Of a stretch of DNA of 49,304 nucleotides, positions 27,243 through 32,187 are shown piece after piece. This DNA is from Hydrogenophilaceae bacterium (GTDB lineage: Bacteria; Pseudomonadota; Alphaproteobacteria; Caulobacterales; Aquidulcibacteraceae): the NCBI GenBank assembly GCA_013389015.1, contig JACAEE010000067.1, positions 1 through 49,304 of the forward strand, read 5' to 3'. Below the pieces are notes generated by a model. The model saw only the letters and a program-made list of their open reading frames with translations, ran no database searches and had not been told where the DNA came from. The translations under genes were made by a program, and so were the position numbers. Each line of letters starts with the position of its first letter. Within the stretch, counting starts at the first letter, position 1.

Positions 27243-28045
27243 CGGCGTCCGTGTTCGAAATCCTCGACGGATTGGCGCGCGACGTCATCGCACGGCGCCC
27301 GCAACGGCCCGCGGTGATCGGCCTGGGCGGGGCGCAAGGGTGCGGCAAGAGCTTTCAATGCCGCGCCTTCGTGCGCGACAGCGGCTTGCGCGTCGCGCAT
27401 TTCTCGCTCGACGACGTCTATCTCACGCTGGCCGAGCGCGAGGAGATGGCGCGCGCGATCCACCCGCTGTTCATCACCCGCGGGCCGCCGGGCACGCACG
27501 ATCTCGAACTCGCGCGCACGATCCTCGCGACGCTGCTGAGCGCAAAGCCGGATCAGCAGACGCGCCTGCCGCGCTTCGACAAGGCGCGCGACGACCGGGC
27601 GCCGGAGAAGGACTGGCCGGTGTTCGTCGGCCGGCCAGACGCGATCCTCATCGACGGCTGGCTCATTCCCGCGGCGACGCCGGTCGGCATGCCGACGGGG
27701 CCGATCAACGCGCTCGAAGAGATCGAGGATCCGCACCGGATCTGGCGCAACCACATGCTGACGCCGCTGGCCACGCGCTATCCGATCTTCTTCCGTCAGT
27801 TCGACGCGACCATCTATCTCAGCGCGCCGAGCTTCGAGATCGTGCGCGACTGGCGCGCGGAGCAGGAGAAGGAGACGCTGGGACGCCAGCTCACCGGACT
27901 CGAGCACGCCGCGCTCGACCGCTTCATCCAGCATTATGAGCGCGTGACGCGGGCCATGCTCGCAGGCGGGCACAAGGCGGATTATGTCGTGCGCCTCGAT
28001 GACGCGCGCAACGTCGTTTCGATCGCGCGCGGCGGAGGCGCGTGA
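27239..28045 (+). CDS. P-loop kinase of the glycerate kinase-like/Tda10 family
   Basis: A 268-residue P-loop kinase. Walker [10 protein letters not shown] is residues 30-38. Characteristic stretches are [18 protein letters not shown], then [36 protein letters not shown] and [15 protein letters not shown]. These fit the D-glycerate 3-kinase / uridine-kinase-like group. The start is the ATG at 27239 overlapping the ispH stop; a long upstream extension lies within ispH. It is translationally coupled to thrB. The physiological substrate is a guess from family. Confidence 0.85.
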
Positions 28046-29001
28046 TGGCCGTCTACACGGACCTCACCGACGAAGAACTGCGCGATCTTCTCGCGGCGTA
28101 CGATCTTGGCGAGGCCACCGCGCTCAAGGGCATCGCCGAAGGCGTGGAGAATTCAAACTTCCTCTTGGAGACGGAACGCGGGCGATTCATCCTGACCATC
28201 TATGAAAAGCGTGTCGCGCCCGCCGATCTGCCGTTCTTCATGCGGGTGATGGAGACGCTGGCGGATGCGGGCTTTCCAGCGCCGCGGCCGATGCGGCGGC
28301 GCGACGGCGCGCTTCTTTCCGGCGTACGCGGCAAGGCGGCGGCGATCATCGCCTTCCTCAAGGGCGTCTCGCCCCGGCGGCCCAATGTCGCGCAATGCCG
28401 CGCGCTCGGCGAGACGCTGGCGCGGATGCACGCGGCGCTCGCGGATTTCCCGGAGACGCGCGCCAACGCGCTGAACATCGCGGCGTGGGCCGATCTGGTC
28501 GCGCCGCGGCTTGGCGACGCTGAAGCGATGCGCGCGGGGCTCGGCGCGGCGCTGAGCGGCGACCTCGCAGCGCTGGCGGCGGCGTGGCCCGCGGATCTGC
28601 CGCAGGGAATCATCCATGCCGATCTCTTCCCCGACAACGCGCTCTTCCTCGGCGATGCGCTTTCCGGCGTGATCGACTTCTATTTCGCCTGCACCGACGC
28701 GCTCGCTTACGACCTCGCGGTATGCCTCAACGCCTGGTGTTTCGACGGGCGCGACTACAACATCACCAAGGGCGCGCATCTGATCGCCGGCTATCAGTCC
28801 GTGCGCGCGTTCAGCGCCGCCGAGCGCGACGCGCTGCCGATCCTGTGCCGCGGCGCGGCGATGCGCTTCTTCGCCACGCGGCTCGCCGACTGGAGCGCGA
28901 CGCCCGCGGGCGCGCTCGTGCGCCCGAAGGATCCCCTCGAATACGCCGACAAGCTCGCGTTTCACCGCAGGGCCAAGGGCGCGGAGGATTACGGCGCCTA
29001 A
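28045..29001 (+). CDS. thrB: Homoserine kinase (aminoglycoside-phosphotransferase fold)
   Basis: A 318-residue ThrB of the APH-like type, phosphorylating homoserine in threonine synthesis. The N-lobe has EGVENSNFLLET and RFILTIYEKRV. The catalytic loop IIHADLFPDNALF and the metal-binding IDFYFACTDALAYDLAV are intact. The ATG at 28045 is chosen over GTG 28042, because GGAGG at 28034-28038 is six bases from the ATG. It overlaps the stop of the kinase gene (TGATG). The partner thrC lies about 9 kb away beside the oxidase genes. Confidence 0.95.
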   Translation: MAVYTDLTDEELRDLLAAYDLGEATALKGIAEGVENSNFLLETERGRFILTIYEKRVAPADLPFFMRVMETLADAGFPAPRPMRRRDGALLSGVRGKAAAIIAFLKGVSPRRPNVAQCRALGETLARMHAALADFPETRANALNIAAWADLVAPRLGDAEAMRAGLGAALSGDLAALAAAWPADLPQGIIHADLFPDNALFLGDALSGVIDFYFACTDALAYDLAVCLNAWCFDGRDYNITKGAHLIAGYQSVRAFSAAERDALPILCRGAAMRFFATRLADWSATPAGALVRPKDPLEYADKLAFHRRAKGAEDYGA

Positions 29002-29057
29002 CTTGACGGCGCGCCGCGGCTCGCCCATGCGAGAGATGCGCGCAAACAGGACGAGGC

Positions 29058-29534
29058 ATGCAAGACGAACCGAAGGGCCACGCAGCCCGCGGCGCATCGA
29101 GAGGACACACGCTGCGCACGCGCGCCGTCGGATGGACGCGGCTCGCGCTCGCGGTTCTCGTCGCGGCGCCGCTGGCGATGGGGATCGCCACCGCATTCAC
29201 GCAAGCCAGCACGCCGTTCCTGCAGGGCCGCGTGGATTCGACGTTCAGCGCCTTCGGGCTCGGGGCGATGCTCGGGCTGGTCTATGGGGCGCCCTCCACG
29301 GCCGTGATCGGCTTGCCGGCGCACGCGGCGCTCGTGTTCTTCAGACGCACGCGGCTCGCGTACTACGCCGCGCTCGGTCTGGCCTCGTGCTTTCTCAATC
29401 TGGTCATCGTCGCGTTCACGATGCGCATCGGGGCGGCGCAATTCTTCGCCGTGCTGCCGACGGCGCTGATCGCGGGGCCGCTTGCGGGCGCGATCTTCTG
29501 GCTGATCCGGCGGCCCGATCAGATCGGGCGATGA
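29058..29534 (+). CDS. Small integral membrane protein (first of a related pair)
   Basis: A 158-residue membrane protein with four helices, ending with AGPLAGAIFWLIRRPDQ. A polar N-terminus (residues 1-28, MQDEPKGHAARGASRGHT) precedes the first helix. I do not recognise a named family. Its C-terminal motif is shared with the next protein, so the two look like paralogues or two halves of one system. The stop overlaps the next start (ATGA). It sits between thrB and rnhA. Confidence 0.7.
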   Translation: MQDEPKGHAARGASRGHTLRTRAVGWTRLALAVLVAAPLAMGIATAFTQASTPFLQGRVDSTFSAFGLGAMLGLVYGAPSTAVIGLPAHAALVFFRRTRLAYYAALGLASCFLNLVIVAFTMRIGAAQFFAVLPTALIAGPLAGAIFWLIRRPDQIGR

Positions 29535-30001
29535 ACGGCGATCCGATCTTCCGCGCGATGCTGATCGGCGCGCTCGCTGCGGGGACGATCGGCGCTCTCG
29601 GCTCGTTCGCGCTGGCCGGCGCGATCGGCGGGGCGGAGGCGACGCTGTTCGCGCTGCCGTTCTGGCTGTTCATCACGCTTGCGCCCACGGTTTCGATCGC
29701 GGTGACGCTCGGCGTCGCCTGGCATCGGCTGGCGCTGCGGCGCGGCTGGCGTTCGCTTGCGGTCTATGCTGCGCCAGGCGCGGCGGTGGGCTTTCTCATC
29801 CCCGCGGCGGCCTATCTCCTCATCTGGGGCGCGCAGCTCGGTGAAACATTGCGCGGCGAAGGCTCGGCGGCGGCGGGAATCGTGCTGCCGCTCCTGGTGT
29901 GCGTCTATGGCGCGTTCGTCGGGGCGCTGACGGGCGCGATCGCATGGCTCATCCGCCGGCCCGATCGCGATGAGACGAATCCCCCTAAAGGCCCGGCATG
30001 A
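29531..30001 (+). CDS. Small integral membrane protein (second of a related pair)
   Basis: A 156-residue membrane protein with four helices, starting [19 protein letters not shown] and ending [18 protein letters not shown]. It shares the terminal pattern G.A..G.I.WLIRRPD with the preceding protein. The ATG at 29531 overlaps the previous stop by four bases, and its own stop overlaps the rnhA start. Function unknown; a hetero-oligomer with the first protein is plausible but inferred. Confidence 0.7.
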
Positions 30002-30438
30002 GCAGACCCGTGGAAATCTGGACGGACGGCGCGTGCAGCGGCAATCCCGGCCCCGGCGGCTGGGGCGCGATCCTCGTCTATGGCGACACCGAGAAGGAGC
30101 TCTCCGGCGGCGAAGCGGTGACGACCAACAACCGCATGGAGCTGATGGGCGCGATCGCGGCGCTCGAAGCGCTGACGCGGCCGGCGCATGTTCATCTGCA
30201 TACGGACAGCCAGTATGTGAAGAACGGCGTCACGCAATGGATCCATAGCTGGAAGAAGAACGGCTGGCGCACGGCGGACCGCAAGCCGGTCGCCAACGAG
30301 GATCTGTGGAGGCGCCTCGACGCGGCGCGCGAGCGCCACACCGTGCACTGGAAATGGGTGAAGGGCCATGCCGGCGATCCGATGAACGAGCGCGCCGATG
30401 CGCTCGCGCGCGCCGCGATCAAGGCGCTGCGAAGTTAG
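29998..30438 (+). CDS. rnhA: Ribonuclease HI
   Basis: A 146-residue RNase H that removes RNA from RNA-DNA hybrids. The catalytic residues fall exactly on the classical numbering: Asp10 ([17 protein letters not shown]), Glu48 (NNRMELM), Asp70 (HTDSQYV), His124 (KGHAGDP) and Asp134 (NERADALA). The basic protrusion ([10 protein letters not shown]) is present. It is the last gene of the operon and overlaps the membrane protein gene before it. The intergenic repeat copy B begins 4 bases after its stop. Confidence 0.97.
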
Positions 30439-30538: not shown

Positions 30539-30581
30539 TTGACATAGTTCAAACTTGAACTTTTATTGTTCAATGTTGAAC
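30539..30581 (+). promoter_or_regulatory. Promoter with two MarR-type operators
   Basis: TTGACA at 30539-30544 is a perfect -35. A 17-base spacer follows, then TTTATT (30562-30567) as a possible -10. Two dyads of the form GTTCAA-NN-TTGAAC lie at 30547-30560 (centre AC) and 30568-30581 (centre TG), with starts 21 bases (two turns) apart. The first fills the spacer and the second covers the expected start. MarR-family proteins bind such sites, and a marR gene is in the operon. Confidence 0.75.
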
Positions 30582-30595
30582 CAATGGAGGCGGCG

Positions 30596-31738
30596 ATGCG
30601 GTCGAACAGGCGTGAGGTGATGGCGCTTCTGATGGCTGGGGCGGCGGCGCCGGCGCTTTCGTCCTGTACGGGCGGGCCTGATCCGGCGGCGGCGTGGCGC
30701 GCCCCAGGCGCGGGCGAAAGCGATCTGCGTCGCTTTGCGCTGGCGCACGCGATCCTCGCGCCCAATCCGCATAATCGCCAGCCGTGGCTCGTGGAGATGG
30801 TCGGCGACGACGAGGTGCGCTTCTTCGTGGATGTCGAGCGGCTCCTGCCGGCGACCGATCCGTTCGACCGGCAGATCACGATCGGCTGCGGCGCGTTTCT
30901 GGAACTGTTCGATCTCGCCGTGCGCCAGCGCGGCAAGACGGCGGAGATCGCCCTCTTCCCGGATGGAGAACCGCAGCCGCGGCTCGATCAGCGGCCGATC
31001 GCGCACATCCGCATCACTGACGCCGCCGCCGAACGCGATCCGCTGTTCGACCAGATCGTGCGGCGGCGGACGAACCGCGAGCCGTTCGGGGAGCGGGTCC
31101 CGGATGCGGCCTTGCTTGCACGCATTGCGGCGTTGGGGGCGATCGGCGCGGCGCAGAGCCTGACCATCGAGTCCGTGCAGGGCGGCGCGTTGCGCGATGA
31201 ATTGCGCCGGCTCGCCTGGGATGCGTTCGAGCGCGAATTCCGCACGCCCGCGGCGCACATGGAGACCGTCAATCTCATACGGGTGGGGCGCAAGGAAATC
31301 GCCGAGCATCGCGACGGCATCGCCATCGAAGGCGGGATGGTGGAGTTCGCCAAGATGCTGGGGATGGTGAACCGGAGCACGCTCGCCGACATCGACAACA
31401 GCCAGACGCGGGACGGTCTCATGGAGTGGCGTCCGCTCGCGCTCGAGGCGCCGGCCTATGTGTGGATCACGACGCCCGACAACACGCGCGCGACCCAGAT
31501 CGCGGCGGGGCGCGCCTATGCGCGGCTCAATCTGGCGGCGACGGCGGAGGGCCTCGCCATGCATCCGTGGAGCCAGGCACTGCAGGAATATCCCGAGATG
31601 GCGGCGCTGCATGCGCAAGCGGAGCGCCTGCTGGATGCGCCGGGCGAAGCGCGGGTGCAGATGCTGGCGCGCGTGGGCTACGGGCCCGAGGTGAAGGCGG
31701 CGCCGCGTCGCGGGCTCGACGCGCATATCCGCGCATGA
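30596..31738 (+). CDS. Exported Acg/nitroreductase-like flavin oxidoreductase
   Basis: A 380-residue protein of the Acg-type nitroreductase-like (FMN) family. A Tat-type start (RREVMALLMAGA) and lipobox-like LSSC (21-24) suggest it is exported and lipidated. Family features are AILAPNPHNRQPWLVEM, the two halves of the nitroreductase fold, RRRTNREPFG, and a C-terminal part with EGLAMHPWSQALQEY. The ATG at 30596 has GGAGG five bases upstream; the TTG at 30566 would put the operator in the gene. The substrate is unknown; quinones, nitro compounds or related electrophiles are plausible. It overlaps the marR gene by four bases. Confidence 0.85.
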   Translation: MRSNRREVMALLMAGAAAPALSSCTGGPDPAAAWRAPGAGESDLRRFALAHAILAPNPHNRQPWLVEMVGDDEVRFFVDVERLLPATDPFDRQITIGCGAFLELFDLAVRQRGKTAEIALFPDGEPQPRLDQRPIAHIRITDAAAERDPLFDQIVRRRTNREPFGERVPDAALLARIAALGAIGAAQSLTIESVQGGALRDELRRLAWDAFEREFRTPAAHMETVNLIRVGRKEIAEHRDGIAIEGGMVEFAKMLGMVNRSTLADIDNSQTRDGLMEWRPLALEAPAYVWITTPDNTRATQIAAGRAYARLNLAATAEGLAMHPWSQALQEYPEMAALHAQAERLLDAPGEARVQMLARVGYGPEVKAAPRRGLDAHIRA

Positions 31739-32187
31739 CGGAAGAGGAAGCGCTCACGCTCGCGTTCCAGGCGCTGAGCGAGATCGCCATCATCGGCCAT
31801 CTCGCGGACACCGCGCTTGCGCAGACCCTGCCGCCGGAGCTCTCCGTCGCCGGCTTCGGCGTGCTCAATCATTTCGCGCGCCTCAAGGTCGAGGGCGAGA
31901 GCCCGGCGCGGCTGGCGCGCGCGTTCCAGGTGACGAAAGGCGCGATGACCTACACGCTGCAGCGGCTGGAGGCCCAGGGCTATGTGCGCATCGATCCCGA
32001 TCCGCGGGATGCGCGCGCCAAGATCGTGCGCCCGACCCGCGCCGGCGAACGAGCGCGCGCCGCCGCCATCGCGCGTGTGCATCCAGGCCTCAGGGCGATG
32101 CTCGCCGTGGTGGGCGCCGAAGAGTTCGCGCGGGCGCTGCCGTTTCTGATCAAACTGCGGCAGATGCTGGACGCGGCGCGAAATTGA
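31735..32187 (+). CDS. MarR-family transcriptional regulator
   Basis: A 150-residue winged-helix regulator. The DNA-binding part is ARLARAFQVTKGAMTYTLQR, then LEAQGYVRIDPDPRDARAK and the wing. The ATG at 31735 overlaps the oxidoreductase stop (ATGA), so it is co-translated with it. It probably binds the two dyads in the operon's promoter and autoregulates. No cysteine is present in its sequence, so OhrR-type cysteine sensing is unlikely and a small ligand is more plausible. Confidence 0.9.
   Translation: MTEEEALTLAFQALSEIAIIGHLADTALAQTLPPELSVAGFGVLNHFARLKVEGESPARLARAFQVTKGAMTYTLQRLEAQGYVRIDPDPRDARAKIVRPTRAGERARAAAIARVHPGLRAMLAVVGAEEFARALPFLIKLRQMLDAARN

Follow-up and report, generated by a model that had tools for sequence, protein, structure and literature searches.

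In the Escherichia coli marRAB operon, MarR represses its own expression through marO, an operator with one palindromic site inside the promoter and a second one downstream. This operator controls MarA and MarB, and marR is the first gene of that operon. A similar arrangement is found in Streptomyces, where the gene for the MarR-family regulator SCO3205 is preceded by a pair of pseudopalindromic sites, TTnAAnnnTCAA; a comparison of orthologues revealed them, and SPR together with a DNA complex confirmed them (PMC3737563). The mycobacterial acg gene, which encodes a flavoprotein, is induced by DosR (PMC11841060). In the 49,304-nt stretch of DNA that we analyzed (the window), an acg gene is followed by a marR gene and preceded by two dyads (Table 1). 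A search of literature that came mainly from outside subscription journals returned no description of this acg-marR operon or its operator, and no hit on the operator consensus or on the NCBI family name.

Table 1. Coordinates of the promoter, candidate operators and genes of the acg-marR locus in the window
Feature	Position	Strand	Remarks
-35 element, TTGACA	30539..30544	+	6/6 match; TTGAC at the matching place in most relatives
Candidate operator 1, GTTCAAACTTGAAC	30547..30560	.	perfect dyad; fills the -35/-10 spacer
Putative -10 element, TTTATT	30562..30567	+	weak, 4/6 match; TATA-type -10 here in many relatives
Candidate operator 2, GTTCAATGTTGAAC	30568..30581	.	perfect dyad; abuts the -10 and covers the predicted start site
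Putative ribosome-binding site, GGAG	30586..30589	+	
acg, Acg-family FMN oxidoreductase	30596..31738	+	380 aa; Tat-type signal NRREVM; lipobox LSSC
marR, MarR regulator	31735..32187	+	150 aa; ATGA overlap with acg
Recognition-helix codons, KGAMTYTLQRLEA	31936..31974	+	residues 68-80; in the most conserved stretch of MarR

The first-pass annotation had described two GTTCAA-NN-TTGAAC dyads starting 21 bp apart, and both are present and perfect, each 14 bp long with starts at 30547 and 30568. Its placement of the first dyad in the promoter spacer and of the second at the start site also agrees with the promoter anatomy, in which transcription would start at about 30574, inside operator 2. TTTATT is the only plausible -10 at a 17-bp spacer from TTGACA and lacks A at position 2; a strict promoter scanner rejected this -10. 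The four-base overlap between the two genes was likewise found. Three dyad matches with up to two mismatches were seen in the window, against 0.31 expected from shuffled sequences. In the 2.97-Mb assembly of the same genome (83% complete), the only perfect dyads are the two copies at this promoter. One-mismatch dyads occur at four further places, each single and unpaired, and a wider regulon in this genome was therefore rejected. The genes on the 5' side of the operon (window positions 28042-30438) are thrB-like and rnhA-like, and L102, a Caulobacteraceae MAG, shares this gene order; the acg-marR operon can therefore follow the corresponding housekeeping genes in another family.

Scanning genome contigs with the window MarR yielded 80 loci, nearly all from Alphaproteobacteria. 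An acg match stands directly before marR in 76 of these, usually overlapping it or within tens of bases, and three of the 76 are cut by a contig end. No acg was found beside marR in L079, L081, L094 and L101, and a search for plasmid relatives returned none. Loss of the dyads upstream of orthologous operons, which the first-pass annotation had named as fatal to its reading, is not what we observed. Among 74 testable promoters, the window promoter included, 70 contain one or more GTTYAANNTTRAAC sites when two mismatches are tolerated (2.05 in shuffles), and a GTTYAANNTTRAAC pair 18-26 bp apart was kept in 67 (0 in shuffles). The consensus across relatives widens to GTTYAA-NN-TTRAAC, with CG as the most frequent centre. 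The order of -35, site, -10 and site was found in 40 of 57 scored promoters. The two helical turns noted earlier between the dyads correspond to the commonest start-to-start spacing, 21 bp, but they are not a rule: the spacing runs from 20 to 26 bp in relatives, and strict helical phasing was rejected on this ground.

The dyad pair appears to belong to the regulator and not to the enzyme gene. An acg-centred survey of the class recovered the pair upstream of acg again, and it was missing at all seven testable acg loci without a neighbouring marR. In Sandarakinorhabdus oryzae (L081:376-410), the pair lies directly before marR with no acg found in the locus, indicating that the sites follow the regulator. 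Some loci carry additional genes between the operator and acg. A DUF4386 membrane protein gene (PF14329) is inserted there at L082:1109-1831 and L097:1098-1820, which shows that a membrane protein can join the operon. Short hydrophobic open reading frames occupy the same position at L089:1749-1844 (31 aa), whose stop codon runs into the start codon of acg (TGATG), and at L111:1675-1806 (43 aa).

The marR product scores above the curated cut-offs for the MarR winged-helix domain (PF12802, 38.8 bits against 27; PF01047, 28.8 against 24.6). Its AlphaFold model (pLDDT 94.8) is a winged helix with residues 68-80 as the recognition helix. The fold matches of this model are MarR-family proteins throughout, and some of the nearest experimental structures are MarR proteins in complex with operator DNA. 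Residues K68-T72, which begin the recognition helix in the model, are invariant in 47 MarR orthologues. The named MarR equivalogs of NCBIfam (MarR, HpaR, SlyA, FabT and BilQ) all scored far under their cut-offs, as in the case of BilQ with 27 against 125 bits. A 578-aa open frame in L021 and L049, considered as a MarR fusion protein, was only a run of masked N. The description of this MarR as cysteine-free is correct for the window protein, but not as a family trait, since 29 of 81 relatives contain cysteine. These cysteines share no common position, which speaks against a signal based on thiol oxidation, and an OhrR-type thiol-sensing MarR was rejected accordingly. The urate-type MarR site contains Trp, and the window MarR has no Trp residue, so a site of this type is not present.

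The recognition helix and the operator sequence change together among the relatives. The TKGAMT helix is paired with GTTYAANNTTRAAC in 87 of 91 loci. All four exceptions have an extra open reading frame before acg; three of them carry the pair further upstream, and L095 has only weaker partial matches. Each of the other helices is paired with its own operator: QPGITK with TTCCNNGGAA (12/12), PKTTMTH with GTNCGANNTCGNAC (5/5) and TRATMTN with RTTNGANNTCNAAY (5/5), although these same loci served to define every operator class except the first. There were no crosses between helix and operator classes among the loci with these four helices, and two dyads around the -10 are kept in most classes. 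On the tree, the association needs about seven switches and provides only 2 to 4 independent pairs, and with so few pairs the sign test was not significant. In L122, L126 and L135, the region upstream of acg contains three unrelated dyads, TAGTAAGG..., TTAGTTAGCTAACTAA and TTTCGTGA..., and the three MarR proteins have three further recognition helices. A TTCC-NN-GGAA operator class was also observed (L133, L134, L138, L139, L140, L143 and others), in which a strongly diverged MarR of about 28-35% identity pairs with acg. This class is apparently the same acg-marR module in other lineages.

We also built a sequence model from the paired site and ran it against 60 family genomes. The model matched 32 of the 33 genomes with a close MarR (E <= 1e-34), in each case mainly at the operon. 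Two genomes, G002 and G048, have the paired site without a MarR match, and the site lies at a contig end in both. All other matches had poor scores (E about 0.01 or worse), and none of the 60 genomes showed another strong paired site elsewhere. The presence of one main place per genome argues for a dedicated switch and against a regulon.

The conservation of the pair, the sites that stay with marR and the co-variation of helix and operator together suggest that MarR very probably binds both dyads and represses its own operon. The double operator and the self-regulation by a co-transcribed MarR, both proposed in the first-pass annotation, are strongly supported by this comparative evidence. We are confident that the operon is negatively autoregulated, with bound MarR blocking the polymerase until a ligand releases it and Acg is exported. 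One MarR dimer would occupy each 14-bp dyad, the first in the -35/-10 spacer and the second beside the -10, over the start site. The promoter anatomy and the co-variation suggest that bound MarR keeps RNA polymerase off the promoter, and the position of the dyads points to a steric block. A small ligand, rather than a cysteine oxidant, would free MarR from the dyads. Upon induction, the flavoprotein would fold with FMN in the cytoplasm and then leave through the Tat pathway; in the source genome, its signal sequence suggests a lipoprotein that is held outside the inner membrane. More MarR would also be made from the shared transcript, and the switch would reset once the ligand is gone; both the ligand release and this feedback are what the MarR family leads one to expect.

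The acg product passes the curated cut-off of NF047509 (Acg family FMN-binding oxidoreductase; 241 bits against 199) and also matches PF00881. Its structure model (pLDDT 90.5) has the Acg fold, with MsAcg (PDB 2YMV) as the top Foldseek match (E 1.9e-16) and as the closest PDB entry by sequence. Residues P58-H59-N60, Q62, W64 and R157 of this predicted FMN protein are invariant. Two arginines among its first six residues, followed by a hydrophobic stretch, mark it as a probable Tat substrate. The arginine pair is near the N terminus in all 73 Acg relatives, whose start codons were picked with this motif in view, and a lipobox-like sequence is present in 37. An exported Acg or nitroreductase-like protein had been annotated; the Acg family, the Tat-type signal and the lipobox bear out the first part, while a nitroreductase or quinone role finds no support, since the characterised Acg makes no use of NAD(P)H. 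The periplasm is also not known to offer NAD(P)H.

Alternatively, the exported Acg could reduce nitro compounds or quinones as a classical nitroreductase or quinone reductase, with MarR sensing nitroaromatics or quinones; this would be compatible with MarR autorepression. We consider this unlikely, although the Acg fold belongs to the nitroreductase superfamily and NfnB and other nitroreductases are among the weaker fold matches of the model. The best match, MsAcg, is a monomeric FMN protein with a lid over the FMN, and NAD(P)H cannot serve as its electron donor (PMC11841060). The Acg subgroup is now named flavin-dependent oxidases (FDO), and some of its relatives act in lipid oxazolone biosynthesis (PMC10404671), which also argues against this assignment. 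Quinones and nitroaromatics had been suggested as candidate inducers from the nitroreductase name, and we do not favour them because of the missing NAD(P)H use of the characterised Acg, its lid and the flavin-dependent oxidase subgroup. Our cautious view is that the oxidation or dehydrogenation of one specific compound is the likeliest reaction of Acg, ahead of an NAD(P)H-dependent nitroreductase activity.

Some MarR proteins act as activators, and the weak -10 would suit a MarR that activates the acg promoter from the dyads rather than repressing it. This is improbable, because in most relatives (the 40 promoters above) the polymerase footprint takes in the sites of the spacer and the start region, and the -35 of the window promoter is perfect. 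It is still less probable that the dyads serve LexA as SOS boxes or bind some other global regulator. The alphaproteobacterial LexA box is GTTC-N7-GTTC; the GTTC and GAAC ends of the dyads resemble it, and one GAAC-N7-GTTC arrangement lies between the sites (30557-30571). However, the direct repeat is absent, with the two GTTC starts 21 bp apart. The GAAC-to-GTTC gap is variable in relatives owing to the variable dyad spacing, and position 4 frequently carries T in place of C. Moreover, each genome has the paired site at a single main place, which does not look like a regulon, and the site changes along with the neighbouring MarR. We therefore rejected the LexA reading. Each dyad is able to form a short hairpin, but RNA hairpins or chance palindromes have practically no probability given the excess over shuffles, the conservation of the dyad sequence itself beyond pairing, and the position of operator 1 upstream of the predicted start, where it would not be transcribed.

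Beyond MarR autorepression at this locus, we tentatively propose a broader picture, which is plausible at best: an undescribed module, widespread in Alphaproteobacteria, whose cytoplasmic MarR would sense the substrate of an Acg-type flavin oxidase exported by the Tat pathway. Its layout of dyad, -10 and dyad would be fixed, with at least four operator sequences that change with the recognition helix. If this is true, the module is a natural series for reading MarR specificity, and its helix-matched operator classes lend themselves directly to work on MarR DNA recognition. It would tie an exported Acg flavoprotein branch to a dedicated regulator in many species, and the MarR ligand, once found, would point directly to the Acg substrate.

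The closest described systems share parts of this arrangement. Like marO, the acg-marR operon has two palindromic sites and a MarR that, here by inference, represses itself; the half-site is different, the target is a flavoenzyme and marR is the second gene. SCO3205 and the window MarR both have two sites, whereas the inner spacing and the half-site differ, and SCO3205 is actinobacterial with no acg partner described. Among operator-bound MarR structures, MftR and PecS (8YLG and 8YLI) are the top fold matches, at about 25% identity to the window MarR. MsAcg and the M. tuberculosis Acg (Rv2032) belong to the same Acg family as the window product; mycobacterial acg is under DosR and has no control by an adjacent MarR, and the window Acg adds a Tat-type signal and a lipobox. 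This kind of device is thus already known from marO and SCO3205, and the acg-marR switch is a new and widespread instance of it.
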